In this document: positions 37,624 to 58,732 of the stretch, piece after piece
Numbering within the stretch: position 1 is the stretch's first letter
Layout of the letters: each line of letters opens with the position of its first letter
NCBI GenBank assembly: GCA_028749115.1
Contig: JAQURD010000005.1
Span: 81,826-145,825, forward strand
Direction: 5' to 3'
DNA from: Acidobacteriota bacterium
GTDB taxonomy: Bacteria > Acidobacteriota > Aminicenantia > Aminicenantales > Saccharicenantaceae
Length of the DNA stretch: 64,000 nucleotides
Made by a program: the position numbers and the translations under genes
The notes under the pieces: model-generated
Databases searched by the model: none
Seen by the model: only the letters and a program-made list of their open reading frames with translations
Told to the model about the DNA's origin: nothing

Positions 37624-37712
37624 GAATGAAGGCCAAATCGCCTGCAAATAAGTTCAGGTTTTTTTGAAATTGAAAAGAAGTTGTCTAAATAAAAAAGAGG
37701 GTGAGGTTTAGT

Positions 37713-40700
37713 ATGATCAGCCTAAAAAATTTTAGGGCCGGCAGGCTGGCTGCCTTGTTTTCTGGCTTAGTTTCGTCAATCGTCATCCTTTTCCTGTTCC
37801 TGGCATTTCCAGTTCAGGCTCAAACCAATCCGGATCTCAGCCGTGAAAAAATTCTGTTTACTGTTGGCTATGCTCATCTTGATACTCAATGGCGCTGGGA
37901 CTATCAGACAACTATTAGAGAATACCTCTGGAAGACAATGGTTGATAATTTTTCTCTTTTTGAAAAATATCCTCATTATGTTTTCAATTTCAGCGGAGCC
38001 AATCGCTACCGGCTGATGAATGAATATTATCCAGAAGAATATAAAAAAGTTAAAGATTATGTGGCTCAAGGCAGGTGGTTCCCGGCTGGTTCTTCTCTTG
38101 AAGAAAATGATGTGATGGCCCCTTCAGCTGAATCAATCATCAGGCAGGTTCTCTATGGGACGCATTATTTCCGCCAGGAATTTGGCTTTAGCAGCCGTGA
38201 ATATATTCTGCCTGATTGTTTTGGCTTTCCGGCTTCCCTCCCGTCAATTCTGGCCCACTGCGGACTTAAAGGCTTTTCTACCCAGAAGCTTTCCTGGGGT
38301 TCAGCTATTGGTATCCCTTTTAACCTTGGCATCTGGAGCGGGCCGGATGGACAGTCAGTCGTGGCTGCTCTAAATCCGGGTGATTATGTCAGCAAAATAA
38401 CTGGTGATTTAACCAGGAATGAAACCTGGATGAACCGGGTAAAGGAAAATGGCCAGAAATACGGGGTGTATGCTGATTATATGTATTACGGTACCGGCGA
38501 TGTGGGCGGCGCTCCGGATGAAAATTCAGTGATCAATCTGGAAAAGAGCCTGGCCAGCAATCAGGAAAGTGAAATCAAAATAGCTGCCTCTAAAGCCGAA
38601 GATCTCTTTGTGTTACTAACGGCTGAACAGAGGAATAAACTTCCTGCTTACCAGGGAGAGTTCCTTCTGACCAATCACTCGGCTGGTTCGATCACCTCTC
38701 AAGCGGCTATGAAACGCTGGAATAGAAAAAATGAATTCCTGGGCTATGCGGCTGAGGCTGCTGCCGTTATGGCTGCCTGGTCAGGTGCCGGACAATATGA
38801 TCAGGCCAGACTGAATGAAGCCTGGCGCCTGGTTCTAGGTGCTCAATTTCACGATATTCTACCTGGAACAAGTGTTCCCCGGGCTTATGAATTTTCCTGG
38901 AACGATGAAATTCTGGCTGCCAATCAATTTGAGCAGGTTCTTAAATATTCAGCCGGGGCCGTTATCTGCCACCTTGACACGCGGGTAACTGGGCGACCGC
39001 TGGTTGTTTATAATCCACTGGCTTTTAGCCGGGAAGATATAGTTGAAGCTGAAGTAGAATTTCCCGGGGAAATTCAGGCCTGCCGGGTTTTTGGGCCAGA
39101 TGGCCTGGAGGCTCCCTCCCAGATAAAAGAAATTGAAGGAAATAGAATTAAAATAGTTTTTCTGGCCAAAGTCCCGCCGGTTGGTTACAGTGTCTATGAT
39201 GTCAGGCCATCGGCAGAAGCCTGCAGTCTGAGTACTGGCTTAAAAGCCGGGAAAAACAGCCTGGAAAACCTGCGCTATGTAGTGAAGATTAACCGTGATG
39301 GGGATGTCTCCAGTATCTATGATAAAAAAGCCAAAAAGGAACTGCTGGTTTCCCCGGCCCAATTATCTTTTCATCAGGAAAAGCCGCAGCAATGGCCTGC
39401 TTGGAATATGGATTGGGAAGATAGAATGAAACCCCCGGCTGGATATGTGGAAGGCCCGGCTGAGGTATCAATAGTTGAAAATGGACCCGCCCGGATAGCC
39501 ATCAAAGTGGAACGGGAATCAAAGCATTCAAAATTTGTTCAAATTATCAGGCTGTCAGCCGGCGAGGCAGGTGACCGGCTGGAGTGGAACAATCAGATTG
39601 ATTGGGCGACGCCTGAATCATCTCTCAAAGCAGTCTTCCCGCTGACGGTAGCCAATTCGGTTGCTACCTATAACTGGGAAGTTGGCACGATAAAGAGGGG
39701 CAATAATGATCCGAAAAAATTTGAGGTTCCCTCCCATCTGTGGTTTGACCTGACAGATAAAAGTTCTTCTTATGGGGTTTCAATTCTGGAGGATTGTAAA
39801 TACGGGTCAGATAAACCGGCTGACCACCTCGTCCGTCTGACCCTTCTTTATACACCCGGGGTAAGAAGCTGGCCGAAAGAACAGGCCACTCAGGATTTTG
39901 GCCGGCATGAAATTCTTTATGCCCTTTATGGTCATCAGGGTGACTGGCGTCAGGCCGGAACAAATGAGCAGGCCTTAAGACTCAATCAACCGCTGATAGC
40001 TTTTACTGCTCAATCTCAAGCCGGTGTTCTGGGCAAGAACTTTTCATTTCTGACTGTCGAACCAGAAGGGCTAAGGGTTCTGGCCATAAAAAAGGCCGAG
40101 AATTCTAAAGAGATTATAATCAGGGTGGTTGAGACTAGAGGCCGGGCCGTAAAGAAGGCCATCCTAACTTTTGCTTTTCCGATTAAATCGGCCAGTGAGG
40201 TTAACGGGGTTGAGGATCACCTGCGCTCCGCTCAATTCAAGGGTAATAAATTGACATTTGATCTTGAACCTAATGGCCTGAAAAGCTTTGCTCTGGACAT
40301 TGAACCATTCCAGAAAAAGTTAGCTCCAGCTGTCTCCAGGCCGGTTGATCTGCCCTATAATCTTGATGTCTTCAGTTTTGATCACGACCGTTCTGATGGC
40401 GCCTTCGAAGCTTCTGGCTGGACTTACCCAGCTGAGTTGATTCCTGATTCAATTCTAGTCGGGAACCAGACTTTCCAGCTTGGCCCAAAGTTTGACGGAG
40501 CAAAAAATGCAGTTGCCTGTGAGGGTCAGGTGATCAGCTTGCCTCCGGGGAATTTTAATCGCCTCTATCTTCTGGCGGCGGCTTCAGAAGAAAACCAGAA
40601 AGGACTCTTCAAGATTGGCCAGAGAGAAGAAGAGTTTTCAGTCGGCTACTGGTCAGGCTTTATCGGCCAGTGGGATAACAGGCTCTGGGCGGAAGGCCCC

Positions 40701-41756
40701 GCGGCCAGCCTGGATTTTGACCGGGATAGTTTTACTTATAGCGGTCTGATTCCAGGCTATATCCGGGGCGATGAGCTGGCTTGTTGTACCACGCATCTTC
40801 ATCAGTCTTTAACTGGTCCTGAGGGTAATGAACCTTATATCTACGGCTATATTTTTAAGTATGAAATTAACCTGCCGCCAGGTGCTAAAGAAATTGTTCT
40901 ACCCAGTAATAAGGCGATAAAAATTTTTGCTCTGGTGGTTGCTTTTAATGAAAGCGATGAACCGGAGCCGGCTCAAAATTTATTTGACACACTTGTCCGG
41001 CAACCTGTAGATATGGAAAGATGGGCGGTCGTCCCGCCGCCTGTTATCACTCCAGCTACAGCTTATGTCAGCCCATCCCAGCCGGCCTCAGTCTCAATGA
41101 CGGTTCCACTAAAAGGTGCAGAAATCCATTATACCCTTGACAGCAGCGAACCAACGGTCAAATCGCTGGTTTACCGGGATGCCCTGAGTATAGGTGAGAG
41201 TAAAGTTCTCAAAGCAAGGGCTTTTCATCCAGTGAGATTGCCGGGACCGGTAGCTACTGGCTATTATAGCCAGTCTTTGCCGGTTGTTGACATCATCTAT
41301 TTCAACCCGCCAGCTAAAAACAGGGAAGGTGCAGGTGAAGAGAGAACATTAATTGACCTGATTAAAGCCAGCGAGGATGTTGCCGATAAAAACTGGCAGG
41401 GTTTTGAGGGCGAAGATCTAAAAGTGGTGCTTGATCTTGGCCAAAAAAAGGATGTTTATGAGCTGGAACTTAGTTGTGCCGAGAATAATAATGCCCGGAT
41501 CTTTCTGCCAGTGGCGGTGAAAATCGAGCTTTCAGTGGATGGCCAGAAATTTGAGACAATGGTTGATCAAAGATTACCGGTTCCGGCAGCTAAAAAACCT
41601 CAGGGGCCGGCGATCAAAAGGCTGGACTTCAGCCTGAAAGGCAGGGAGGCCCGCTATATCAGGTTGACAGCAGCCAGTGTTGGCCGGGTGCCGGAAGGCT
41701 TTCATGAAGCTGGCCAGAAAGCCTGGCTAGTCCTGGATGAAATTTATGTTAGATAG
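37713..41756 (+). CDS. Secreted GH38-family alpha-mannosidase-like glycoside hydrolase with C-terminal accessory domains
   Basis: Signal peptide of about 38 residues (core LVSSIVILFLFLAFPVQA). The GH38 catalytic domain begins with VGYAHLDTQWRWDY, which has the zinc ligands, and carries the nucleophile aspartate in LPDCFGFPASLP (about residue 168). A middle all-helical and beta-sandwich region follows, ending near residue 860. The C-terminal 330 residues include a chitobiase/FN3-associated segment (ITPATAYVSPSQPASV, IHYTLDSSEPT) and a discoidin-like segment (VVLDLGQKKDVYELELSCAEN). Total 1347 residues. The ATG at 37713 has AGG six bases upstream; an in-frame GTG at 37701 is possible. It is predicted to release mannose-type sugars outside the cytoplasm; exact specificity is unknown. 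Confidence 0.88.
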   Translation: MISLKNFRAGRLAALFSGLVSSIVILFLFLAFPVQAQTNPDLSREKILFTVGYAHLDTQWRWDYQTTIREYLWKTMVDNFSLFEKYPHYVFNFSGANRYRLMNEYYPEEYKKVKDYVAQGRWFPAGSSLEENDVMAPSAESIIRQVLYGTHYFRQEFGFSSREYILPDCFGFPASLPSILAHCGLKGFSTQKLSWGSAIGIPFNLGIWSGPDGQSVVAALNPGDYVSKITGDLTRNETWMNRVKENGQKYGVYADYMYYGTGDVGGAPDENSVINLEKSLASNQESEIKIAASKAEDLFVLLTAEQRNKLPAYQGEFLLTNHSAGSITSQAAMKRWNRKNEFLGYAAEAAAVMAAWSGAGQYDQARLNEAWRLVLGAQFHDILPGTSVPRAYEFSWNDEILAANQFEQVLKYSAGAVICHLDTRVTGRPLVVYNPLAFSREDIVEAEVEFPGEIQACRVFGPDGLEAPSQIKEIEGNRIKIVFLAKVPPVGYSVYDVRPSAEACSLSTGLKAGKNSLENLRYVVKINRDGDVSSIYDKKAKKELLVSPAQLSFHQEKPQQWPAWNMDWEDRMKPPAGYVEGPAEVSIVENGPARIAIKVERESKHSKFVQIIRLSAGEAGDRLEWNNQIDWATPESSLKAVFPLTVANSVATYNWEVGTIKRGNNDPKKFEVPSHLWFDLTDKSSSYGVSILEDCKYGSDKPADHLVRLTLLYTPGVRSWPKEQATQDFGRHEILYALYGHQGDWRQAGTNEQALRLNQPLIAFTAQSQAGVLGKNFSFLTVEPEGLRVLAIKKAENSKEIIIRVVETRGRAVKKAILTFAFPIKSASEVNGVEDHLRSAQFKGNKLTFDLEPNGLKSFALDIEPFQKKLAPAVSRPVDLPYNLDVFSFDHDRSDGAFEASGWTYPAELIPDSILVGNQTFQLGPKFDGAKNAVACEGQVISLPPGNFNRLYLLAAASEENQKGLFKIGQREEEFSVGYWSGFIGQWDNRLWAEGPAASLDFDRDSFTYSGLIPGYIRGDELACCTTHLHQSLTGPEGNEPYIYGYIFKYEINLPPGAKEIVLPSNKAIKIFALVVAFNESDEPEPAQNLFDTLVRQPVDMERWAVVPPPVITPATAYVSPSQPASVSMTVPLKGAEIHYTLDSSEPTVKSLVYRDALSIGESKVLKARAFHPVRLPGPVATGYYSQSLPVVDIIYFNPPAKNREGAGEERTLIDLIKASEDVADKNWQGFEGEDLKVVLDLGQKKDVYELELSCAENNNARIFLPVAVKIELSVDGQKFETMVDQRLPVPAAKKPQGPAIKRLDFSLKGREARYIRLTAASVGRVPEGFHEAGQKAWLVLDEIYVR

Positions 41757-45881: not shown

Positions 45882-47900
45882 TCAGTCAATGTAGCCGAGA
45901 GACCTTAGCTTTTCCTTTTCGGACGGGCTGATCCAACGGCGCTGACTTTTAAACATCTTTTCTTCTGCCCTGGTAATTATCTTCTGGAGAGAAATTAGCA
46001 ATTGTTCTTTTTCTTTAGGACAAATGACAGATAGATCGTTCTTTTCTTGAGGGTCATCAGCCAGGTTATAAAGCTCTGTCACTTCTTCTGAACTAAAAAC
46101 TGAATGGATGATCTTCCACGGATAATTAATCAGAGACTTAGACCGCCGTGAACCCTGAGTAAGTTCTAAACAGATAGGTTTTTTATTTATTGGTTCTTTT
46201 TTCTGGACAAGTGCCTGGCTAAGGTCTTCTCCTTCTAAAGTGTAGGACAGACTAAGCACTTCATTCATGCCTAACAAATGATATAAGGTTGGAAATAAAT
46301 CTAGCATGGAAATCGGTCCTTTGATCCTTAGGCCGGTTGGTAACAAGCCTTCGCCGGCCATGATGAGTGGAACATGAGTCAGCTCCTGGTAGAGAGAATG
46401 TCCATGCCCCCAGCCGCAATGATCATAGAATTCTTCGCCATGATCAGCCGTGACCACCAGAAGCGTATCTTTTAATCTCCTTTCCTCTTGCAGAAATTCA
46501 ATCAGCTGGCCGAGCCAGTAATCATGATAAAGAATCTTCGCGTCATAAAGAGCTAACATCTTTTGCCTGTCAGCTTCAGCTACCGCTGGACCTTCTCTAA
46601 ATGGTAAAAATAGCCCGAGGCTTTGAGGGAAGGTGATTGGCCAACTTTCGGCTTCTGGCAGGTTTTCTTCTGGCCAGAACCTTTTAACGAAGGCAGGCGG
46701 AGCCAGATAAGGAGCATGCCCTCCTTCTAGATGAGCCAGAAGGAAAAATGGCTTCTGGGCATGGTTTTTAATCCAGTTCATCATTCTTTTAGTCATTGTT
46801 TCCGGGTCAGTCGAGGCCAGTTCAGTTTCTCCAAAGCTCAGAGTCGAAAGCCTCTGGCTTAGAAGATAAATAGGCTTGAGTACCTGGTTAACAACTGCCA
46901 GGCGAGTAGAGCGGTCAAGAATATGGCCAAAAATCGTTTTATAAGCTTTTATGGAAAATTCATCAGGTGCAAAAAAACGATCGATTCCCTGATCATATCC
47001 ATAGGCAGGTGAAAAGTATGGATTAAAAGAAAAAGCAACCGTATTGTAGCCAAGAGCCTTAAAAACCTCAGGAATGATAATTAGATCGGAAGGAAGATAA
47101 GAAGTAATGTCATTCATCTGGTGGGATGAGGAAAGGGTGGAGGAGAGCAAAGAAGGCACTGATTCGACTGTATGAGAGGAGGCGGCCATAGCCTGCTCAA
47201 ATATCACACCCTGATTGGCCAGGCTATCCAGAAAAGGAGAGGTCTTCAGAGGATAACCATAGCAGCTCAAATGATCAGCTCGAACTGCATCCCAGATAAC
47301 CAGAATAACATTTTTAGATGAATCGCCGGTAACCAGTTTTAAAACCGGCTCTTCATTCGCCAGTTTGTCTTTCCGGACGTCAGACGGACTTAGAAGCACA
47401 ATCAAGCCGGCTAGAAGAAGAGCTAAATGAATGGTTAGATAACTTTTCCAGAAGGGATTAAAAGAAGGTGCCTTTTGTCTAAAAGATCGTAAGAGTAATA
47501 TCAAGCCGGCCAGCGCCAGGCCAAAAAAAATAACATTGATGATGAGGCCTGACTGGTTGAAGATGCCAGCAAAGACATAGGTATTGATAAAACCCTGGCC
47601 AAGAATCCAGGCAGCAAAATAGCTGAAAATAATAAACCAGACTAAAAAATCTACCCTCACCGGCTTCTTTCTGGCGGCCAGCCAGACAGTCCAGACCAGG
47701 CCTGCGGCCAGGCCGATGACCAGCCAGAGCAGACCATGCCAGATAGAAATGCCGGGCAGATCTGAGAAATTAAAAATTGATTTCCCCTTAAGCATCTCCA
47801 GAAGAACATTCCATTCACCCAGGAATACTCCACTTAACGAAGCGCTTAAGGGACCGATGAGGAGAGGAATGAAACCTGTCCGTTGCCGCTTTTGAGCCAT
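45882..47900 (-). CDS. Membrane-anchored alkaline phosphatase superfamily (sulfatase-like) hydrolase
   Basis: N-terminal membrane region with about five helices (residues 10-175), then an external catalytic domain of about 480 residues. It begins VILVIWDAVRADHLSCYGY with metal-binding aspartate. The nucleophile region is MAASSHTVESVPSLLSS, and the second metal site is VVTADHGEEFYDHCGWGHGH. The C/S-x-P-S-R signature of formylglycine sulfatases is not complete (leucine at the arginine place), so a phospho-transferase or phosphodiesterase role is as likely as sulfatase. The architecture recalls LTA synthase and phosphoethanolamine transferases. It is transcribed away from the giant Tat gene at 48095. 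Confidence 0.82.
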   Translation of the reverse strand: MAQKRQRTGFIPLLIGPLSASLSGVFLGEWNVLLEMLKGKSIFNFSDLPGISIWHGLLWLVIGLAAGLVWTVWLAARKKPVRVDFLVWFIIFSYFAAWILGQGFINTYVFAGIFNQSGLIINVIFFGLALAGLILLLRSFRQKAPSFNPFWKSYLTIHLALLLAGLIVLLSPSDVRKDKLANEEPVLKLVTGDSSKNVILVIWDAVRADHLSCYGYPLKTSPFLDSLANQGVIFEQAMAASSHTVESVPSLLSSTLSSSHQMNDITSYLPSDLIIIPEVFKALGYNTVAFSFNPYFSPAYGYDQGIDRFFAPDEFSIKAYKTIFGHILDRSTRLAVVNQVLKPIYLLSQRLSTLSFGETELASTDPETMTKRMMNWIKNHAQKPFFLLAHLEGGHAPYLAPPAFVKRFWPEENLPEAESWPITFPQSLGLFLPFREGPAVAEADRQKMLALYDAKILYHDYWLGQLIEFLQEERRLKDTLLVVTADHGEEFYDHCGWGHGHSLYQELTHVPLIMAGEGLLPTGLRIKGPISMLDLFPTLYHLLGMNEVLSLSYTLEGEDLSQALVQKKEPINKKPICLELTQGSRRSKSLINYPWKIIHSVFSSEEVTELYNLADDPQEKNDLSVICPKEKEQLLISLQKIITRAEEKMFKSQRRWISPSEKEKLRSLGYID

Positions 47901-47952
47901 TATCTTTTATAAATAGCAGAACTTTTTAAAAGAGACAAATCTAAAAAAAATT

Positions 47953-47983
47953 TTTACTTGACTTTGCTTAAGATTTATATAAT
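47953..47983 (+). promoter_or_regulatory. Candidate promoter of the giant two-gene unit
   Basis: -10 TATAAT (47978-47983) with a TTTACT (47953-47958) 19 bases upstream. An overlapping TTGACT (47958-47963) would pair with AATAAA at 17 bases. A leader of about 100 bases follows, with a small TGCAG/CTGCA stem-loop and a GGAGGG ribosome site before the ATG at 48095. Confidence 0.5.
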
Positions 47984-48094
47984 AAAGAAGCCAGAGATTT
48001 AGTCAAATGCAGGCTTTTATCTGCAGGAAGGGTGTTTTCCAAATCAATTAAGAAGCAAAAGGCTTTGCCTATCTTATGAGCAAAGGAGGGTAGC

Positions 48095-51000
48095 ATGTCT
48101 GATTCTCATCCGGGAAATCCTGGTGAAAAAAATAGTGAACCGAAGAAATCGGCTATATCCAGAAGGAAATTTTTATCATATGCAGGCCTGCTGGGAGTTG
48201 CTCCACTTGTTGGACAGCTCAAAACAGTTCAGAGGAAAATAATTCCTCAGGCTAAGTTACCGGTAGTATTACCAGCTGGATTAACCTTTAACGTCCTGAG
48301 GCCAGATGATTTGCTCTGTCTGGATTTTGAGTTTATTAATATGAAATTAACTGGCCTGGCCGGGAGCCAATATCTGGTCAAAGAAAATCGCAGCCGGCCG
48401 GCTTATATGATTGTTCATTTTCCGCCACAGAGTGTGGTGGAAGAAGCTTTCTACGAAAGGACTCCAGAGCTAAATGATTTGCTTACTATGGAACCGCTTA
48501 AACCCCCACCGGTCTTTTCCAGAATATCGGGGCCCAGCCGCCTGAGCTTTATCATCCCGGATGAAATTGATAAGGTTCCCCTCACTCTGGAATCACTTTT
48601 AGCCTGGCAGCTTTATCAACCCAGCCTGGTACCGGTGGCTCTGCCGCCAGCAATTTCCGGGCCGGCACCCAGCAGACCAGGGCTAGCCAGGACAGGAACT
48701 TCAACAACTAATTACAGATCTCTCGTTACCTCAATCGGTCCGTCAGGTCAGAATCTTTATCTTCAACAAAACCGGCTGGCTCAGGCTCAGATCAAACAGA
48801 TAAACAGGTCTCTTCTCAAGCCGGGGCCACCTGAAAAATATCAGACGGCCATAGAGATGCCCTACCGGCTGATTCTTTCGCCTAACATCTATAATGTCTG
48901 GGTTCATACTGCTAATCCTTTATCTATGAATGGCTGGACAGAGCTCTGGCACACCAGATTGGCTGCTTTGAATCAGGATGGCTCAGTCAGCGAAACAGAT
49001 AATCCAAATTTGGCCGTCCGGGCCGTCTGGTCACCTGATGTGGACCTTGACAAGCTAATTGGCCCTTACCCTGAAAATCTTAGCAAACCGCGACTTTCCC
49101 TGAGTCCGAATCACCGGCATCAGATTGTTCATCTCACCAGTAATTTCACTTTAAAAAATCCAAATAGAACCTCTTATGAGCCTCAACCGGTCTGGATAAA
49201 TAATATGATGCTGAGCCCGCTTGGTGCCTGGCTGGATTCCATCGGCAATTGGCCGGCTAATTCGCCCATGTTAGGTGCGGGTGCAGCACCGGTCATCACC
49301 TGGCAGCACATGGCTGCAATGGGAAGAGATTATTATGTTAAGGTAGCTACGGCCGGCTATCTTTTGCCCTTTGGTCACCGGGCTTCTTTGGTCACTGTCA
49401 CAGAAAGGAAATTCTTCAAAACCCAGGAAGGCCAAAATATTGCCTATCTTTTCCAGAAAAAATATATCATGGTACGTGATCCTGAGAGGGTATTTCCCGC
49501 GCCTTATCAGCCTGTCAAAGGAGGAATGAAGATTCCTTTTACCAGAGTTAAACTGACGACTCTGGTTACTCCGCCGATTGCTCCCCCCAGTACTTCTCCT
49601 CTGATTTCAGGCGCAGGTGAGCTGGCTTTCTGGCCGATGGTCAGCAATCAGGATTTTATCTTTCAAGCTCTAGGTACTGATGTTGAAGGTCATGAAGTCC
49701 AATTTAAGATGCCCATGGCCTATATAGCTGGGAGTTATGCTTTTGAAAATGTGGGACAGAGTGTTGATGCCTATAAGTTAGCCTCCAGACAGAGAAGGCA
49801 GCCGGATTTTCTAGGTCAGACTATTTCTTTTGCCCAAGAAAACAAAGCGGGAGACACTTCTTTTGAAGTTGAATCCATAAGTTGGCTGCTGGAAGTGGTT
49901 GAGCAGAATCAACTAGCAGCTTTTCAGACACAGGATCAACCGATGTGTTTTCCAGTCATGGAAAGTGCGTCAATTAATATTCCAGCCCTGAAGAACCTGG
50001 TTGGCTTTGACAATACTCTGGTTAAATATGCAGATGTTTATATCAATCAGGCTTTTAAGGCATCGCAAAATAGAGGCGAAGTTTTCTTTCAGATACTGAA
50101 TCCGCCCCTACTCGATTTTGCCGCCGGAGGTAAAGCCGAAAAATCTGGCGGCATAGCTACTCCCAGCTTTTCTATAGTTGGCCTCTCCAGAATTCTCGGT
50201 CCGGTAGGAGCCAATCTTAGTTCTACCTCGTCCGAACCGCAGCCTGAAGCCGGTTCTGGCCCATTAGCAGAGCCTGACGAAGAGGCAATAACCGATGCTC
50301 TGCAGGATGCCATCTCAGGGAAATTTGACCCGAAAAAATTCTTTACCGATAAAGCCAAAATTTTAGGCGGTATTCTTCTTCAGGATGTCATCGATCAAGT
50401 TAATGACTTTACCAGTCCTGCTAACAGCGACCGGGCCCTGAATATCAAAACCGAGCAGCTTTATGAAGACGACGGGAAAACACCGGTCGGAGTTAAAACT
50501 CTGCTCAAGTGGACTCCTGGCGTCCGTGATGTCCTGTTTTTTGTGGCTAATAGGGGTAGCACCAAATCTACCCTGACTCTGGATGTGGAAGCTGCTGCTT
50601 ACTACGACGGGAGAGAAGCTACTTACAAGGTCAAGGGCGAATTGACTGATTTCACTCTTGACCTGATTAAAGGAATTACTACCTTTGTGCTGCTCAAATT
50701 TTCTAAATTTACCTTTACAACTGAAAAGGGCAAAAAAACTGATGTTGACCCGAAGATTGCTTCGATCGAATTCAAGGGTCCCCTAAAGTTCATTAAGGAG
50801 TTGCTGGACAAGATCCCGCTCCCGGGTGGTTCCAGCGATGCTGACGGCGGATTTGGCGGCAAGCCCATTGTTAAAGTCGATGCGGCCGGAGCTAAACTTG
50901 GATATGCTCTGACCATACCGGATGTTTCCTTCGGTGTTTTTACTATGCAGAACCTCAAGTTTTCTGGTGAAATTTACCTGCCCTTTAACGGAGATCCTGT

Positions 51001-51493
51001 CTCTATCAGGTTTGCTTTTAACGAAAAGAATAATCCTTTCTTGTTAACCGTATGCATGTTTGGAGGCGGCGGGTTTTTTGCCATCGAGCTTCAGCCACAT
51101 GGCATCAAACTGGTAGAAGCCTCTCTGGAATTCGGTGGTAGCTTTTCTATGAACCTGGGTGTGGCCAGCGGCGGCGTGACTTTGATGGCTGGTATATATT
51201 TTAAATACGAGGACGATAATATTACCATTTCCGGTTATGTGCGCTGTACTGGAGAACTGGATGTTCTGGGCTTAATCAGCATTTTTGCCGAGTTCTATCT
51301 CTCACTGACTTACGAAGAGGCTGGCAATAAAGTGTGGGGACAGGCTTCACTGACCGTTAAGATTAAGATCGTCTTCTTCAGCATCAAGGTAACTTTAAAA
51401 GTGGAAAGGGAATTCGGACATTCACCAGCTCCGTTATTTTGCGATCTGATGGAAGAGACAGACTGGCAATCTTACTGCCAGGCTTTTGCCTGA
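48095..51493 (+). CDS. Giant Tat-exported protein of unknown function (first of a pair)
   Basis: A protein of 1132 residues. The N-terminus has a twin-arginine signal with SRRKFL at residues 22-27 and a mild hydrophobic stretch YAGLLGVAPLVGQL; no clear AxA cleavage site is seen, so it may stay anchored. The first 700 residues are a mixed beta-rich region with phrases such as YRLILSPNIYNVWVHTANP, GWTELWHTRLAAL, AVRAVWSPDVD, MMLSPLGAWLDSIGNW, GRDYYVKVATAGYLLPFGHR and ASLVTVTERKFF. An acidic, Ser/Pro-rich linker lies near 705-735. The last 230 residues alternate glycines with hydrophobic strands, as in a barrel or beta-solenoid, and end with DWQSYCQAFA. No catalytic motif or named family was recognised. 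The second giant gene starts 14 bases after the stop. Confidence 0.75.
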   Translation: MSDSHPGNPGEKNSEPKKSAISRRKFLSYAGLLGVAPLVGQLKTVQRKIIPQAKLPVVLPAGLTFNVLRPDDLLCLDFEFINMKLTGLAGSQYLVKENRSRPAYMIVHFPPQSVVEEAFYERTPELNDLLTMEPLKPPPVFSRISGPSRLSFIIPDEIDKVPLTLESLLAWQLYQPSLVPVALPPAISGPAPSRPGLARTGTSTTNYRSLVTSIGPSGQNLYLQQNRLAQAQIKQINRSLLKPGPPEKYQTAIEMPYRLILSPNIYNVWVHTANPLSMNGWTELWHTRLAALNQDGSVSETDNPNLAVRAVWSPDVDLDKLIGPYPENLSKPRLSLSPNHRHQIVHLTSNFTLKNPNRTSYEPQPVWINNMMLSPLGAWLDSIGNWPANSPMLGAGAAPVITWQHMAAMGRDYYVKVATAGYLLPFGHRASLVTVTERKFFKTQEGQNIAYLFQKKYIMVRDPERVFPAPYQPVKGGMKIPFTRVKLTTLVTPPIAPPSTSPLISGAGELAFWPMVSNQDFIFQALGTDVEGHEVQFKMPMAYIAGSYAFENVGQSVDAYKLASRQRRQPDFLGQTISFAQENKAGDTSFEVESISWLLEVVEQNQLAAFQTQDQPMCFPVMESASINIPALKNLVGFDNTLVKYADVYINQAFKASQNRGEVFFQILNPPLLDFAAGGKAEKSGGIATPSFSIVGLSRILGPVGANLSSTSSEPQPEAGSGPLAEPDEEAITDALQDAISGKFDPKKFFTDKAKILGGILLQDVIDQVNDFTSPANSDRALNIKTEQLYEDDGKTPVGVKTLLKWTPGVRDVLFFVANRGSTKSTLTLDVEAAAYYDGREATYKVKGELTDFTLDLIKGITTFVLLKFSKFTFTTEKGKKTDVDPKIASIEFKGPLKFIKELLDKIPLPGGSSDADGGFGGKPIVKVDAAGAKLGYALTIPDVSFGVFTMQNLKFSGEIYLPFNGDPVSIRFAFNEKNNPFLLTVCMFGGGGFFAIELQPHGIKLVEASLEFGGSFSMNLGVASGGVTLMAGIYFKYEDDNITISGYVRCTGELDVLGLISIFAEFYLSLTYEEAGNKVWGQASLTVKIKIVFFSIKVTLKVEREFGHSPAPLFCDLMEETDWQSYCQAFA

Positions 51494-51507
51494 AAAGGGG
51501 GATAAAC

Positions 51508-54500
51508 ATGCCAAAATCAACAATTATGTGGACTGTGTGCCCTAATGGAATTAAGGATGGAAAACTGCAATTTTCGGCTGCCGTTTCGATCCGTCTAGAA
51601 GACGAAAGTAGTGGAAGAACACCACGCCTGAGTCTATTCCCGGATATCATGAACTGGCCTGAAACAGTTCGAGCTCTTAATTTCCAGATCATCTATGATA
51701 ATCAAAAGGGCAGGAAACCGTTGGGGGTAAGAAGAGTCTCAGCCGATCCGGAACAGGAACTCTGGCAGGCGATCTTCAAATTAGAGTCGCCAGTTTTTTC
51801 CTACAAGATGGCTGATCTGAGCAATAATCTGGTGGTTTCCTTTCCAGTGAAAAATGTTATGACTTTTGTCGCTTCTGAATATATGAATGTGGTGGCTGAA
51901 TCTCCCGAGGAGCCCCCGCCAATAGAAAAAGTATTCCACACTGATGGACTGGCCCAAATTCGTCTTAAGCCGATTACTGATGTGCGCTTTGCCAAAACTG
52001 TTGAGCTTAAGGCCACTCAGCCGGCCATGGCTCAAACCGTCAGAAAAGAAGCAGAAGGCCAGAAAGTCAAAGCGGTCCAGGTTTCGCCCATACCCCAACC
52101 GCCGAAGGATTTTTACCTCCTGAGAGAATTCTACAAGCCAAAAAATAAAGTAATACAGGATCTGAAAACTAAGAAGCCTATAGTTCAGAGAGTTCCAATC
52201 ACTCAGCCCCAGCTTGATTTTCACCAGGCCCTGGCTTTTCTGACCAGCTATCCGACACTGATGAGAATGCTCGGTCTAACCATAGATTTTGAACTGGAGA
52301 TCCCGGCTGATTTCCCGACCAGCGGCTGGATAAAATTAATTCCAGGCGGTAGAAGCGATGAAACACCGAGGACTGCCTATAACTATGACCTGTCCAGAAA
52401 AGTGTTTGAAGCAGCTAATAAAAAACCAGCGGAAGTGATTAATGGCTTTCTAAACCTGGCTGACGAGGAACTCTATGACCTGGTGCAACTGGATGTAGAT
52501 TCTATTGCTCTGAAGACAGCCGAGCTGGCTGATACGGCTGAAACCAAAGAAAAAGCCGAGCTCCCGGCTCTACGCTCAAGTGGCCTGGGAGTCATCAGGA
52601 ATGATCAGGCCAAAAATATAGCTGAAGTACTGGTTAAAGCTAAAGAACTTAATGATGACCTGGTCAGGAAAAAAGAAATTACCCTTTATGCTGAAGACCT
52701 GGTTCAGGGCTACCGGATTGATGTCTGGGACGAAAAATCCAGAAAATGGCACTCGCTCTGCCAGAGAAAAGGAACTTACAGGTTTGTCCGGATTGATAAG
52801 GAAATTACCATTGATGATGAAGGCTTTATCTCGCCGGCTTTTACTCAATCGGCCGATGAATCATCAGATGATATCTTCGCTCATGAATCTCTATTTCACT
52901 GGGACGGCTGGAGCCTGGTGGTTCCCAGGCCGGGAAAAACTATTGATCCGAATGATGAGCCAAAAGCTATTGAGAATCAGGCGCTGACTGATTTCAAGCT
53001 GGAAACCAAATTTAAACCTGTTCCGGGGTCACTCCCGAAGCTGCGCTATGGGGTAGGTTACCGTTTAAGAGCCAGGACGGTTGATCTGGCAGGAAACAGT
53101 CAGCCACTGGAAAATCCTGATAGCAGTCAGACAATTCCAGCTCCATCAAAAGAAGCCTTTACTTTTTCTCGTTTTGACCCGGTGGCTTCTCCGGTAATAA
53201 TTCCCAGAGAAGAGCCAAAGACTGGGGAGACGGTTGACCATGTGGTTATTAAAAGTTTTAATGAATCACTTGAAAAAGATACCGAACCGACTTCTCAGGT
53301 TTCTGACCGCCATCTGGCCCCGCCAAAAATCTCTCAATTTGATAGCGAGCTTCATGGCATGTTTGATAATGATTCTGGCCTTAGACCTGAGGTCTATTCT
53401 TTAATCTGTCAGAGAGATCCAGGCAAATTTAATGAGCTTGAACCGGGAGATCAGATTGAACTTCCTTACTTCCCGGATCCCTGGGCCACAGGAGCCTGCG
53501 TCCGTGGTTTGCCCTATGGAGCGTCCGACCCGATGATGATTGAATTTAATGGTGACTGGCCTGATTTCCGGCCTTTTCGGTTGAGACTGGAAGAAGGCAG
53601 TCAGTTTGCCCGCTGGGATGATTCCTCCCGGGTTTTAACTGTCTATCTCAAAAAGGGAGAGTCGGTCACTCTGCGTATTAGTTCTTACTTTCCTCAAAGA
53701 TTTTTGGGTATCCAGGGGCTCTACCGCTGGCTGGAAAAGCCAGAAAGAGTGCTGCCACAGAAAGTCTTAAAGCCGCCCAGGGGTTTGCCTGAAGGCCAGA
53801 TTAAGACCTTAAAAACTCTTCAAGTCCCGAGGATAGATCTGACCAGGATAAATACCATTTCTGCTCAGGGAAGAAACTGGCTGATGACTCCTTTCCGGGA
53901 AATCACGCTGATTCATGCCACTGTCCAGCCTATCGGCCGGCCAATTAATAAATCATTAGAAGCTCAAAAGAGTTATGGCCAGACCTCAGCTGTACTTTAC
54001 GGCGAATATGAAATTCACGGTCACAGTACTTCCAAGGTTGAACTGATGGCTGACTGGCAGGAGCCCGTGGATTATTTAAGTGATCCTGGTCCAAGAGTGA
54101 TTGACGGCAAAGCTCATGTGCTGGCATTTACCATCACTCCGCAGATGAAATCTATCTCTTTCACTCCAAAGCTGGAGCAGAAGAGGATTCAGAATTCAGA
54201 TAACCAGCAACAGGTACCAAAACAGATGACGGCCACCTTTGAGGCTAGGCCTAAGCTGCCTGTTTACCGCCACGAATTTGGAGATACCAAATTCAGACGG
54301 GTTAACTACAGTCTGATGGCCACAACCAGATATCAGGAACAGTTCCCATCAAACGAACTGCCTGAAGAAACCGGCTATACCAGGACGAGTGATCCTGTAG
54401 AAGTTAAAGTGCTAAATTCTGCTCCTCCAGCCATGCCCAAAATTCTTTATGTCATTCCCTCATTTAAATGGGAGAGGGGTAAGAGAGGCACCCAGATAAC

Positions 54501-55524
54501 CAGCGTCAGGAAAAACGCTCTTCGAGTCTACATCGAAAGACCCTGGTATTCCTCAGGTGAAGGCGAGCTTCTGGCTGTTATTCTGCCACCTGGCCTTCAA
54601 GTAACTCCCAAAAAACGCCAACCAGAAATGGTTACAGGTGTCGTCCGGACGCAAGCCAAGACTACGAGTCAGACACAGATTCAAGCTCAGGCCAGACCTC
54701 AGATTCAGAAGAAAATCGTTTCCCCTGTAGCTTCCATCAGCATCCCGTCAGTAGCTGAAAAATACAAACCCTACGTTACGATGTGGGGAGCTGACCCAAT
54801 CTGGAAGTCAGGAGCAACAGCTCCACCAGAATATCCATTGACCAATGCCTTTCCATCTGCCGTCGAGATAATGGGTGACCTGCCTCTTCTGGAAATGCCA
54901 GAAGAAAAGAAATTCATCGCGGTTGGCCATGAAGTAGCTTATGACGAAGAAAGAGGTCTCTGGTATTGCGACTTAGAGCTTGATTCCGGCCAGGCTTATT
55001 TCCCATTTATCAGGCTGGCTCTGGCCAGATTTCAGCCCGATTCAGTTCCTGGAGCTCATCTTTCGAAGGTAGCGGTGACTAATTTTGCTCAAATTCTCCC
55101 CGAACGGAATTTAGTAGTTACCTTTAATCCGTCTAACCTAACCGAAATTGGCCTGACACTATCTGGCATTTCTTATAACCAGGGGCATGCGGGAAGAGGT
55201 CCGAGCCTGGTGGAAGTCAGCCTGGAAAACAAAAAAATTAACCTGCCTGAAGAAATCGGCTGGGAACCAATGGAAGGAATGACTATAACCCTGAATGCTC
55301 AGAGTACCGGTTCTGGCCAGGGCAGCTCTTTTGTCTGGACAGGTACCATGAAGCTAACCGGGATAGCAAGAATCCGGGATTACCGCCTGGTTATCAGGGA
55401 ATATGAAATTTTTGATACCGATGAGGCAGACGAAACAGCCAGAGCTGTAGCCACGGCGGCGATTCCACGCAAAAAGTACAAACGCTTGGTTTATGCTGAA
55501 ACTATTAAGCTGGTCGACCTGTAA
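51508..55524 (+). CDS. Giant protein of unknown function (second of a pair)
   Basis: A protein of about 1338 residues from ATG 51508, which has a GGGGGA ribosome site; an upstream frame extension into the preceding gene is unlikely to be used. There is no signal peptide or membrane helix. It is beta-rich with phrases such as MWTVCPNGIKDGKLQFSAAV near the start, HESLFHWDGWSLVVPRPGK near residue 460 and YRLRARTVDLAGNSQPL near 515; the last of these resembles an Ig/FN3-like strand pair. A Gln/Thr/Ala-rich linker (TQIQAQARPQIQKK) lies near 1055-1070, before a C-terminal domain of about 250 residues. No enzyme motif was seen. The tight spacing to the Tat protein suggests that both form one complex; export by hitch-hiking on the partner is possible but unproven. 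Confidence 0.75.
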   Translation: MPKSTIMWTVCPNGIKDGKLQFSAAVSIRLEDESSGRTPRLSLFPDIMNWPETVRALNFQIIYDNQKGRKPLGVRRVSADPEQELWQAIFKLESPVFSYKMADLSNNLVVSFPVKNVMTFVASEYMNVVAESPEEPPPIEKVFHTDGLAQIRLKPITDVRFAKTVELKATQPAMAQTVRKEAEGQKVKAVQVSPIPQPPKDFYLLREFYKPKNKVIQDLKTKKPIVQRVPITQPQLDFHQALAFLTSYPTLMRMLGLTIDFELEIPADFPTSGWIKLIPGGRSDETPRTAYNYDLSRKVFEAANKKPAEVINGFLNLADEELYDLVQLDVDSIALKTAELADTAETKEKAELPALRSSGLGVIRNDQAKNIAEVLVKAKELNDDLVRKKEITLYAEDLVQGYRIDVWDEKSRKWHSLCQRKGTYRFVRIDKEITIDDEGFISPAFTQSADESSDDIFAHESLFHWDGWSLVVPRPGKTIDPNDEPKAIENQALTDFKLETKFKPVPGSLPKLRYGVGYRLRARTVDLAGNSQPLENPDSSQTIPAPSKEAFTFSRFDPVASPVIIPREEPKTGETVDHVVIKSFNESLEKDTEPTSQVSDRHLAPPKISQFDSELHGMFDNDSGLRPEVYSLICQRDPGKFNELEPGDQIELPYFPDPWATGACVRGLPYGASDPMMIEFNGDWPDFRPFRLRLEEGSQFARWDDSSRVLTVYLKKGESVTLRISSYFPQRFLGIQGLYRWLEKPERVLPQKVLKPPRGLPEGQIKTLKTLQVPRIDLTRINTISAQGRNWLMTPFREITLIHATVQPIGRPINKSLEAQKSYGQTSAVLYGEYEIHGHSTSKVELMADWQEPVDYLSDPGPRVIDGKAHVLAFTITPQMKSISFTPKLEQKRIQNSDNQQQVPKQMTATFEARPKLPVYRHEFGDTKFRRVNYSLMATTRYQEQFPSNELPEETGYTRTSDPVEVKVLNSAPPAMPKILYVIPSFKWERGKRGTQITSVRKNALRVYIERPWYSSGEGELLAVILPPGLQVTPKKRQPEMVTGVVRTQAKTTSQTQIQAQARPQIQKKIVSPVASISIPSVAEKYKPYVTMWGADPIWKSGATAPPEYPLTNAFPSAVEIMGDLPLLEMPEEKKFIAVGHEVAYDEERGLWYCDLELDSGQAYFPFIRLALARFQPDSVPGAHLSKVAVTNFAQILPERNLVVTFNPSNLTEIGLTLSGISYNQGHAGRGPSLVEVSLENKKINLPEEIGWEPMEGMTITLNAQSTGSGQGSSFVWTGTMKLTGIARIRDYRLVIREYEIFDTDEADETARAVATAAIPRKKYKRLVYAETIKLVDL

Positions 55525-55543: not shown

Positions 55544-58500
55544 TTATTGATATTCTGCCCAGTGCTTGATTTTTAAGTCACTGATATTTTTGGAGACAAA
55601 AGCCTGAACAAAAGCTTCAGCCAGTTGCAAGTTGGTGATAACCGGGAGGCCCAGATCTACGGCCAGCCGCCTCATTCTGTAGTCTGAATCGAATTCTATT
55701 CTTTTTCCGGTATGAGGGATAGAAATTAGAAAATCAATTTTCTTTTCCTTTAAAAAATCTTTAAGGTTGGGCTGGCGGTGCTGATGGATTTTGTACAGCC
55801 AGGTGGTGCTAATTTTATGCCTGCTGAGAAATCTTGAGGTCCCCTCCGTCGCATAGATTTTGAGCCCGGTTTTGGCCAGTTCCCGGGCTGCGGGCAAAAA
55901 TTTTTGTTTATTTTCCTCACCTCCCAGACTGAGAAGAATAGATTTTTCCGGTAGCCGGAAACCAGCGGCCAGCATGGCTTTGAGCAGTGCCTCCTGAAGA
56001 TCATCGCCTAAGCAGGCGACTTCGCCTGTCGAGGCCATTTCCACTCCCAGGCAGGGGTCAGCTCCCTTGAGCCTCGAAAAAGAGAATTGAGGAGCTTTGA
56101 CGCCAACATAATTCAACTCAAAAATTGAACTGGCAACGCTCACTGGAAGTCCCAGCATTGATCTGACCGCCAGCTCAATGAAAGGGATCCTGGAAACTTT
56201 GGAGACAAATGGCAGGGAACGCGAGGCTCGCAGGTTGCACTCAATCACCTTGAGGGCATTGTCTTTGGCCAGGAGCTGAAGATTGAATGGTCCGGTTATA
56301 TTCAAAGCACGGGCAATTTTTTCCCCAATTATTCTTATGCGGCGAACGGTTTCGAGATAAAGCTTCTGCGGCGGAACAACCATGGTAGCATCGCCGGAAT
56401 GAACTCCGGCATTTTCGATATGTTCAATAATAGCTGAAGTTACCATCTTCCCCTTACTGGCCACAGCCTCGAGTTCGATTTCCTTGGCTCCCATAATAAA
56501 TTTGGAAATAACTACCGGATATTCAGATGAGACAAGAGAAGCCCGTTTTAAATATCTATCTAAAAATTTTTCCTCAAACACCAGACTCATGGCTGCACCG
56601 CTCAGAACGTAGGAAGGACGAATGATGACCGGATAACCAGCTTCGTGGCAAAATCTTCTGGCTTCTTCCAGGCTGGTGACTTCTTTCCAGGGTGGCTGGT
56701 CTATCTGCAGTTCGTCTAAAAGCTTTGAGAACTTACGGCGATCTTCGGCCCGGTCAATATCTTCAGGTGATGTGCCCAGAAGGGGCAGGCCGGCCTGATA
56801 GAGTTTCAGGGCCAGATTGTTAGGAACCTGGCCGCCCATGGAAACAATAATTCCAGCCGGCTTTTCCTTTTGATAAATATCGAGGACTCTTTCCAGGCTG
56901 AGTTCATCAAAGTAGAGTCGGTCGCACATATCGTAGTCGGTGGAAACGGTCTCCGGATTGTAGTTAACCATGATGGTTTGATAACCGAGCTGTCTTAGAG
57001 CCAGCGAAGTATTAACAGCACACCAGTCGAACTCAACCGATGAGCCGATGCTGTAAGGCCCAGAGCCCAGAACCATAATTTTTTTCTTCGAACGGCTAAA
57101 ACTCAAGTCATCTTCTGAGCCGTTGTAAGTAAGATAAAGGTAATTGGTTCTGGCCGGGTATTCAGCGGCCAAGGTATCAATTTGTTTGACAGACGGCCGG
57201 AGCTTGAAGCTCTCTCTTTTCTGGCAGACACTTTCTTCCGTGGCCCGGGTAAAAATGGCCAGTTGCTTATCTGAGAAACCTTTCCTTTTGGCTTCCAGGA
57301 GGACATCGGCCGGCAAATCATCTAACTGGTATTTTCTGATTTTTTCTTCTAAATCTACCAGTCCTTTCATTTTATATAAAAACCAGGGATCAATCTTGGT
57401 CAAGCCAGCCACTTTGTCGACTGACCAGCCCTTTTTAAAGGCCTCAGCCAGGCCGAAAAGCCTTTCATCGGTCGGTTGATATAATTCCTTTTCGAGATTT
57501 TTAAACGAATAATTTTCATTGCCGACAAAGCCATACATGCCAACCTGAAGCATACGAATCGCCTTTTGCAGGGCCTCTTCAAAACTCCGGCCGATGGCCA
57601 TAACTTCACCGACGGATTTCATTTCAGAGCCAATCTTTTTGGAGACCCTGGCAAATTTCTTCAAATCCCACCGCGGAATCTTAACGGTGACATAATCAAG
57701 GGCTGGCTCAAAGCAGGCGGTAGTTGTCCCTGTCACCGAATTTTTCAATTCGGGAAGTAAATAGCCAAGCATCAACTTGGCGGCGATAAAAGCCAGGGGA
57801 TAACCTGTCGCTTTGGAGGCCAGGGCTGATGAACGGGATAGCCTGGCATTGACTTCAATTATCCGGTAGTCGCTATTAGCCGGGTTCATGGCAAATTGAA
57901 TATTACATTCTCCAATAATGCCCAGTTGCCTGACGGTTTTGAAGGCAATCTCCCGCAGGCTGTGGTATTCCCGGTTGGTCAAAGTCTGAGAGGGGGCAAC
58001 GACGGCGCTTTCTCCTGTATGAATTCCCATCGGATCAAGATTTTCCATGTTGCATATAGCCAGGCAGTTATCGGCCCGGTCACGGATTATTTCATATTCA
58101 ATTTCTTTCCAGCCCTCTAAGTATTCTTCAATCAGTACCTGATTCGATTGAGAGAGAGCCAGGAAAAGCTTTTCGGCCAGTTCTTGCTGGTTAGAGCAAA
58201 GAGAGCTGCCCTGTCCGCCGAGGGCAAAAGCTGACCTCAGCATCACCGGGAAGCCCAGGCTTTTTGCTGCCTTCAGGCCTTCTTCGAGCGAAGAAACTGC
58301 CTGACCATGGGGAGTCTTAAGAGAGGCTGAGGCGAGAGCCTCGTTAAACAACGCCCGGTCTTCGGTGATTTCTACAGCTTCGAGCGGCGGGCCAAGGACT
58401 TTTATATGATGCCTGTTAAGGAGGCCTTCTTTGGCCAGCTTCAAGCCGCAGTTAAGAGCCGTTTGACCTCCAAAAGACATCAGCAAAGACTGGGGTTTTT

Positions 58501-58732
58501 CTCTTTCTATGATTTTCTCTACAAGCTGGAATTCAACCGGCATGAAATAAACTTTATCGGCCAGGAAGTCTGAAGTCTGAAAAGTAGCAATATTGGGATT
58601 GACAAGCACCACTTCGATTTTTTCTTCTTTGAGAGCTTTAATAGCCTGGCTGCCGGAGTAATCAAACTCGCCGGCTTCACCTATTTTGATCGCTCCGCTG
58701 CCCAGAAGCAGGACTTTTTCAGGCTTTTTCAT
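55544..58732 (-). CDS. carB: Carbamoyl-phosphate synthase large subunit
   Basis: Makes carbamoyl phosphate from bicarbonate, ATP and ammonia delivered by CarA, for pyrimidines and arginine. The first ATP-grasp half starts VLLLGSGAIKIGEAGEFDYS and includes SFGGQTALNCG and VIEVNARLSRSSALASKATGYP. The second half repeats the layout with VLGSGPYSIGSSVEFDW, SMGGQVPNNLALKL and VIECNLRASRSLPFVSKVS. A C-terminal MGS-like allosteric domain follows (SLGGEENKQKFLPAARELA, LLKAM, LISIPHTGKRIEFDSDYRMR). Length is 1062 residues, normal. The start overlaps the carA stop. It converges with the giant gene pair, 19 bases apart. Confidence 0.96.
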   Translation of the reverse strand: MKKPEKVLLLGSGAIKIGEAGEFDYSGSQAIKALKEEKIEVVLVNPNIATFQTSDFLADKVYFMPVEFQLVEKIIEREKPQSLLMSFGGQTALNCGLKLAKEGLLNRHHIKVLGPPLEAVEITEDRALFNEALASASLKTPHGQAVSSLEEGLKAAKSLGFPVMLRSAFALGGQGSSLCSNQQELAEKLFLALSQSNQVLIEEYLEGWKEIEYEIIRDRADNCLAICNMENLDPMGIHTGESAVVAPSQTLTNREYHSLREIAFKTVRQLGIIGECNIQFAMNPANSDYRIIEVNARLSRSSALASKATGYPLAFIAAKLMLGYLLPELKNSVTGTTTACFEPALDYVTVKIPRWDLKKFARVSKKIGSEMKSVGEVMAIGRSFEEALQKAIRMLQVGMYGFVGNENYSFKNLEKELYQPTDERLFGLAEAFKKGWSVDKVAGLTKIDPWFLYKMKGLVDLEEKIRKYQLDDLPADVLLEAKRKGFSDKQLAIFTRATEESVCQKRESFKLRPSVKQIDTLAAEYPARTNYLYLTYNGSEDDLSFSRSKKKIMVLGSGPYSIGSSVEFDWCAVNTSLALRQLGYQTIMVNYNPETVSTDYDMCDRLYFDELSLERVLDIYQKEKPAGIIVSMGGQVPNNLALKLYQAGLPLLGTSPEDIDRAEDRRKFSKLLDELQIDQPPWKEVTSLEEARRFCHEAGYPVIIRPSYVLSGAAMSLVFEEKFLDRYLKRASLVSSEYPVVISKFIMGAKEIELEAVASKGKMVTSAIIEHIENAGVHSGDATMVVPPQKLYLETVRRIRIIGEKIARALNITGPFNLQLLAKDNALKVIECNLRASRSLPFVSKVSRIPFIELAVRSMLGLPVSVASSIFELNYVGVKAPQFSFSRLKGADPCLGVEMASTGEVACLGDDLQEALLKAMLAAGFRLPEKSILLSLGGEENKQKFLPAARELAKTGLKIYATEGTSRFLSRHKISTTWLYKIHQHRQPNLKDFLKEKKIDFLISIPHTGKRIEFDSDYRMRRLAVDLGLPVITNLQLAEAFVQAFVSKNISDLKIKHWAEYQ

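Follow-up and report, generated by a model that had tools for sequence, protein, structure and literature searches.

A widespread two-gene unit of giant strand-rich proteins with a Tat-type signal on the first subunit

A coupled pair of giant genes

The window analysed here, a stretch of 64,000 nucleotides from contig JAQURD010000005.1 of an Acidobacteriota bacterium (an assembly of 2.25 Mb in 41 contigs), carries two adjacent genes, A and B, which encode giant strand-rich proteins with a predicted twin-arginine translocation (Tat) signal on A (Table 1). An initial annotation, made from the sequence alone, had described two genes of 3.4 and 4.0 kb, 14 bases apart, and had proposed that they represent a two-part system that is conserved, has been widely transferred and bears no named function. 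The layout is as described, and the pairing reaches far beyond the window: A lies directly upstream of B, on the same strand, in all 73 loci that contain B's start. These loci derive from a B-alignment pattern scan of genome contigs, which returned 492 stretches, 395 of them encoding B relatives, and of which the best 80 gave 78 loci; a scan of viral contigs (IMG/VR) added one more, and six of the resulting 79 lack B's start. Over the 73 loci the gap between the genes has a median of 14 bases (range -20 to 123) and is at most 60 bases in 69.

The same coupling was found from the side of A. B is present in each of the 31 loci that contain A's end, 19 of which were already known from the B scan (17 from genomes chosen for holding the pair, plus L143 and L151, which are the same DNA as L095 and L062) and 12 of which were new. 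With three of three giant pairs described below, B follows A in 15 of 15 new places. Fragments in which A's end falls outside the locus, or which are pieces of genes already counted, were left out (L133-L136, L148, L149, L152), and pieces of giant pairs (L153-L158) were counted through L197-L199. A single A match per genome was seen in 16 of 17 genomes and two matches in the other. Homologues therefore occur as adjacent pairs rather than singly, and the two-part nature of the system proposed at the outset is borne out from both directions.

The pair is sparse, being found in 1-6% of genomes across four phyla. In the window's phylum B occurs in 7 of 199 genomes and A in those same seven; the A profile matches 7 of 246 genomes in the Nonomuraea phylum and 9 of 151 in the phylum of a Dehalococcoidales bin (both including the known centre genome and fragments or remote matches), and 4 of 299 in the phylum of a Burkholderiales bin (including the known centre genome). 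Hosts include Acidobacteriota, Chloroflexota, Actinomycetota, Bacillota and Pseudomonadota, among others, and extend to genera that lack a classic outer membrane (Neobacillus, Paenibacillus, Halalkalibacter, Nonomuraea and Streptomyces). Cultured carriers include Cupriavidus metallidurans CH34. The closest B relatives, 70-76% identical, are mostly from bins named Candidatus Saccharicenans or Aminicenantes. Among 72,556 plasmid records (E 1e-5), B was found in 10 and A in 15, with plasmid-borne relatives in Rhizobium, Cupriavidus, Streptomyces and others. In the B tree, the only IMG/VR contig with the pair (L109) clusters with an Acidobacteria bin; its origin is probably bacterial. One genome from the phylum of Nonomuraea has a very remote B relative (L137, 4455-8735; 26 bits) next to a stretch remotely resembling A, given which the family may reach beyond the range of our profiles; the wider region of L133 holds a very remote pair, with a B-like score of 26 bits.

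The unit mostly stands alone: an open reading frame (ORF) on the same strand lies within 150 bases upstream of the pair in 11 of 57 loci and downstream in 14 of 64. Neighbour clustering revealed no conserved third gene, mainly returning genus-level synteny and generic families; those recurring in six to eight loci outside the window's kin are, by our own reading, an ABC ATPase, a dehydrogenase and a response regulator. Four loci of the FCB group (Kapaibacterium, Balneolales, Ignavibacteria; L054, L065, L066, L089) have two extra genes beside the pair, one encoding a signal-bearing protein of ~640 amino acids and the other ending in RCC1 repeats in L054 and L089, the two loci where the long copy was scanned.

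Co-inheritance and horizontal transfer

Trees of A and B were built from 52 rows (51 loci and the window) as quick trees without mixture models, leaving out seven Saccharicenans rows that were nearly identical and any locus in which A or B was not full-length. The two trees largely agree: of the 29 starred splits in either tree, 23 are shared with the other, with two conflicting pairs, and path distances correlate at 0.70, a value reached in none of 1000 permutations, which speaks for co-inheritance and not for contact. This agreement indicates that the pair has been inherited as a unit. Transfer between phyla, as the initial annotation had supposed, is supported by the plasmid copies and by starred clades that mix phyla. 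In examples of such clades, Bradyrhizobium erythrophlei GAS478 falls inside Acidobacteriaceae bins, Pseudomonas japonica groups with a Syntrophaceae bin, and a Chloroflexota bin is joined by one of Methylobacter. Bins can carry stray contigs, but the GAS478 and P. japonica clades include named strains. On the B tree, 11 phylum labels require 21 changes, where the minimum is 10 and shuffled labels average 31.0; not one of 200 shuffles came as low. The labels are thus clustered, though not cleanly, and much of the descent has also been vertical.

Search for a known family

Neither protein is contained in any of the described families or systems searched. The window's A and B gave no match above noise in Pfam, NCBIfam, PHROGs, PADLOC or PDB sequences, the best being B to an NCBIfam model (E 0.06, far below its cut-off) and B to a PHROG (E 0.46). 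Across a diverse set of 35 A and 34 B relatives, Pfam gave five matches, each in one member, so that no Pfam family is common to two or more; no enzyme family was detected by sequence for A or B in Pfam, NCBIfam or PHROGs, the relatives being covered by Pfam. No relative in the PDB emerged with profiles built from 49 A and 56 B sequences, B's best match being a single chain at E 0.17. A narrow literature search found no open-access paper on the pair, in line with the original view of a function without a name, and the family may be listed elsewhere as a cluster without a name.

Several specific assignments were tried and rejected. A defence system was set aside as PADLOC gave no match for six proteins. 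A phage tail or virion protein has no support from the PHROG search above, from 50,697 phage records, none of which matched B, or from the pattern scan of IMG/VR, which gave a single locus. Nor does Pfam support an S-layer protein, with no SLH or other S-layer domain matched in the window pair or in the 35 A and 34 B relatives. A comparison of A with B (hhalign E 0.29) likewise gave no support for an origin of the two by divergence from a single gene. Membership of A in DUF6603 (PF20248) looked promising by eye, with a profile signal that is not significant: the DUF6603 profile scored 26.1 against the C-terminal sheet of A (E 0.02, probability 2.4%), compared with 11.0-21.4 for 20 column shuffles and 17.3 and 18.9 for reversed controls, and full-length profile comparisons gave E 0.05 and 0.24. 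The Pfam model itself matched none of the 35 A and 34 B relatives (E 0.01), nor the window's A and B (E 1).

DUF6603 clusters resemble the pair in that they consist of adjacent giant proteins without known function, sometimes in the same genomes, and differ from it in their partners and gene order. The DUF6603 genes that we inspected (L164-L166, L181-L192) are mostly next to a neighbour of ~500-1160 amino acids followed by one of ~1220-2220, and five stretches have a further gene of ~600 amino acids. These stretches are a second, separate multi-gene system of giant proteins without a name; no open-access paper mentioning DUF6603 was found.

Predicted architecture of A and B

The absence of a recognisable enzyme motif, noted earlier, agrees with the searches above, and the beta-rich character is reflected in structural models. 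The AlphaFold2 model of the window's A is strand-rich (predicted local distance difference test, pLDDT, 80.6), as is a model of a B orthologue (pLDDT 88.6). The Nonomuraea pair measures 967 and 1200 amino acids. The last quarter of A is predicted to form a long antiparallel meander with high strand amphipathicity and a barrel-like sheet, and tandem fibronectin type III (FN3) proteins can be aligned with the B orthologue over its final ~425 residues. Folds were compared with VIA-align 2 run on Foldseek's top 1000; the PDB fold lists cover mainly A 901-1130 and B 775-1200 and say nothing on the family membership of the remaining parts. Against a viral fold library, A had one match and B 30 at E <=0.001, with template modelling (TM) scores of at most 0.12 and 0.22, respectively; the named matches of B are mostly envelope glycoproteins C, tail fibres and FN3-type phage proteins. 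We take these viral matches of A and B as common arrangements.

B contains 114 invariant columns in an 11-sequence alignment that includes relatives from Streptomyces, Rhizobium, Cupriavidus and Diaphorobacter, with G, P, W and R making up much of the set. H239, H803 and D1096 are invariant in both this and a 56-sequence set, D237 is nearly so, and H602 is invariant in the 11-sequence alignment only. The phrases GRDYYVKV, HESLFHWDGWSL and RARTVDLAGNS, suspected in the initial annotation of having counterparts in other phyla, bear this out, lying within the conserved family motifs GRDHYVRV, HESLFxWxGWSL and RARxVDLAGNS (alignment consensuses).

A Tat-type signal on A

The window's A has SRRKFL at residues 22-27, as first reported, followed by an uncharged hydrophobic run. 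TatC is present in the window's genome (G000:C39, 231.9 bits, above cut-off), and the presence of a Tat translocase was judged on TatC alone. By a fixed rule, a Tat-like start was found in 21 of 57 full-length A proteins and in none of 71 B proteins (the rule was applied to 57 of 59 full-length A, since two begin less than 100 bases from the locus end), and no signal peptide was seen in B. Outside the window's close kin, the rule-positive A proteins are the two next nearest, three from Dehalococcoidia and one each from Lentzea, a Symbiobacteriaceae bin, another Chloroflexota bin and Kapaibacterium. Seven more SRR or TRR starts, mostly in Armatimonadota-like and FCB bins, were recognised by eye (L050, L051, L053, L056, L065, L089, L094), bringing the count to 28 of 57. 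The predicted Tat signal thus stands for the window's protein, whereas about half of its full-length relatives lack one. On the A tree the trait requires four changes with rule labels (15 of 52 rows) and three with by-eye labels (22 of 52).

A sub-branch of eight loci (two Sinorhizobium, Agrobacterium, Rhizobium, Ruegeria and three further Pseudomonadota) encodes still larger proteins, A' and B'. In the seven complete pairs A' is 245-363 kDa and B' 137-209 kDa, together 415-572 kDa, and five of the seven are plasmid-borne (those of Sinorhizobium, Agrobacterium, Rhizobium and Ruegeria); the eighth was fetched as two overlapping stretches. All eight A' have a Tat-like start by eye, and several have AxA-like cleavage sites, also by eye. 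B' has no Tat-like start; the B' of L196 does match the bare RR pattern, but within the first strand, which is conserved in the family. When the giant loci were searched with the TatA of S. meliloti, two of the eight pairs proved to have a tatA-like gene nearby: on S. meliloti pC the gene right after B' is annotated tatA, and in the eighth giant genome a single ORF separates B' from one that is TatA-like (E 2e-16). These genes (L024, 20661-20828; L199, 4716-4949) are possibly dedicated translocase subunits. In L196-L199, small ORFs whose starts resemble, by eye, secretion signals or those of lipoproteins directly follow B' in several.

Local setting of the pair in the window

A and B stand alone in the window, with both flanking genes on the opposite strand (Table 1). 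The downstream gene encodes a protein whose motifs suggest that it is carbamoyl-phosphate-synthase-like. The claim that the pair has its own candidate promoter is unsupported: a promoter scan of 47800-48200 gave none on the + strand and one on the - strand (0.7 expected), and TTGACT-N14-TATAAT at 47958-47983, picked out by eye, has a short spacer. Near the sulfatase-family gene lies a gene for a GH38 alpha-mannosidase-like protein of 1351 residues, which contains a CHB_HEX_C_1 domain and, below the cut-off, a stretch of F5/8 type.

Table 1 Features of the A-B locus (positions in the window)
Feature	Position	Strand	Remarks
Gene A	48095-51493	+	ATG ORF, 1132 aa, 124 kDa; Tat-type N-terminus, beta-rich mixed middle, C-terminal amphipathic beta-meander (AlphaFold2 model and 49-sequence alignment)
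Tat-type signal of A	48158-48214	+	residues 22-40 (SRRKFLSYAGLLGVAPLVG), twin arginine 23-24
C-terminal beta-meander of A	50441-51415	+	residues 783-1107, strongly amphipathic from ~residue 932
Gene B	51508-55524	+	ATG ORF, 1338 aa, 151 kDa
C-terminal part of B, fibronectin-III-like	53920-55521	+	~3 domains, approximate span, mapped from Nonomuraea orthologue
Ribosome-binding-site-like sequence before A	48082-48089		AAAGGAGG, by eye
Intergenic gap	51494-51507	+	14 bases, with ribosome-binding-site-like sequence of B
Ribosome-binding-site-like sequence before B	51495-51501		AAGGGGG, by eye
Sulfatase-family gene	45882-47900	-	upstream of A, directed away
1062-aa gene	55544-58732	-	downstream of B, directed towards the pair
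GH38 alpha-mannosidase-like gene	37701-41756		

Discussion

The invariable adjacency of A and B, together with their joint inheritance, leads us to conclude firmly that they form an obligate two-subunit unit. Starting from this gene coupling and co-inheritance, the signal on A alone, the TatC in the genome and the strand architecture of the models, we consider that A and B may be two subunits of one giant complex, inherited together, that acts outside the cytoplasm in the lineages bearing the signal; this is the reading we lean towards, at a little short of an even chance. A would fold and bind B in the cytoplasm and then pass to the Tat translocase, an order of events that is most likely because the signal sits on A and none is found on B. 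B would travel with A as a hitchhiker or stay docked at the inner face. Outside, the complex could serve as a binding or structural assembly, with the amphipathic sheet of A packing against a membrane, lipid or partner and the fibronectin-like end of B offering a binding surface. For the window's lineage, Tat export of A is likely judging from its N-terminus, and there is a precedent that makes it plausible for B to be exported along with A as a hitchhiker. The export mode would be of a known kind: in E. coli PaoABC, signal-less subunits are co-transported through Tat, according to an extract of PMC4273604. As in such hitchhiker systems, only one subunit of the pair has a signal and its co-encoded partner has none. 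Unlike them, A and B, known here from their sequences, total 275 kDa or more, compared with the figure of up to 150 kDa for Tat cargo in an excerpt of a review (PMC6708511); no cofactor-binding family was detected in either, and about half of the A relatives have no signal.

A number of observations weigh against export, and they are also those that favour a complex that is cytoplasmic or anchored in the inner membrane. In that case the unit would work inside in many lineages, and the Tat segment would only anchor A in some of them, with B remaining inside. Between 29 (with by-eye cases added) and 36 (by rule) of the 57 full-length A proteins have no signal, including those of Neobacillus, Paenibacillus and Halalkalibacter; these may act in the cytoplasm, and it is such lineages that chiefly speak against a role confined to the outside of the cytoplasm. 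Of the 21 rule-positive proteins, 12 belong to close kin of the window, and at least three to four gains or losses of the signal, depending on the labelling, are needed on the A tree. Inspection by eye revealed no clear AxA cleavage site in the signal of the window's A, which may therefore be no more than anchored, and joint transport of the two proteins would surpass the 150 kDa of the review both here and in the giant pairs. Near six of the eight giant pairs, the search with S. meliloti TatA found no tatA-like gene. The AxA-like sites in several A', the tatA-like gene near the other two pairs and the secreted-looking small ORFs after several B' argue in the opposite direction, and overall we regard a cytoplasmic or anchored complex as rather unlikely.

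Other roles can be envisaged for an exported pair. The amphipathic strands and barrel-like sheet of A, the sparse distribution with transfer and plasmid carriage, and the giant size of both paired components would suit a two-component effector or pore former secreted between competing microbes, in which the meander of A enters the target membrane and B is the binding arm. Such wide invariance is, however, unusual for effectors, and many residues of the pair are invariant across great distances; there is also no common third gene, the recurring neighbours outside the window's kin being generic, and PADLOC matched none of the six proteins, so that we consider an effector very unlikely. A two-subunit enzyme of a new class, with conserved histidine and aspartate residues of B as its active site, seems to us just as improbable. 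It would account for the invariant polar residues H239, H803 and D1096, and cofactor-containing proteins go through Tat (extract of PMC5936819), but no enzyme family matches by sequence and much of the invariant set is G, P, W and R, as in structural cores. Still harder to sustain is an outer-membrane barrel formed by A with B as a surface partner. The long antiparallel amphipathic meander of A does recall CymA, OmpG and FhaC; yet it is only part of a protein of 1132 residues, the alignments cover partial barrels only, and the pair also occurs in Gram-positive bacteria such as those listed above, which have no classic outer membrane.

If the extracytoplasmic reading is extended to its limit, A and B would represent a new class of giant two-subunit machine, exported by Tat folded and assembled and by far the largest Tat cargo, some copies of which bring their own TatA-like subunit. 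We regard this bolder proposal as unlikely, though less so than an effector or an enzyme. Whatever its site of action, the unit consists of proteins of more than 1100 and more than 1300 residues that have stayed coupled across many phyla and have in part passed from one to another, and that are absent from the five libraries searched. If the Tat reading is true, the pair tests how large a folded cargo Tat moves; if it is false, this is still a widespread two-gene unit.

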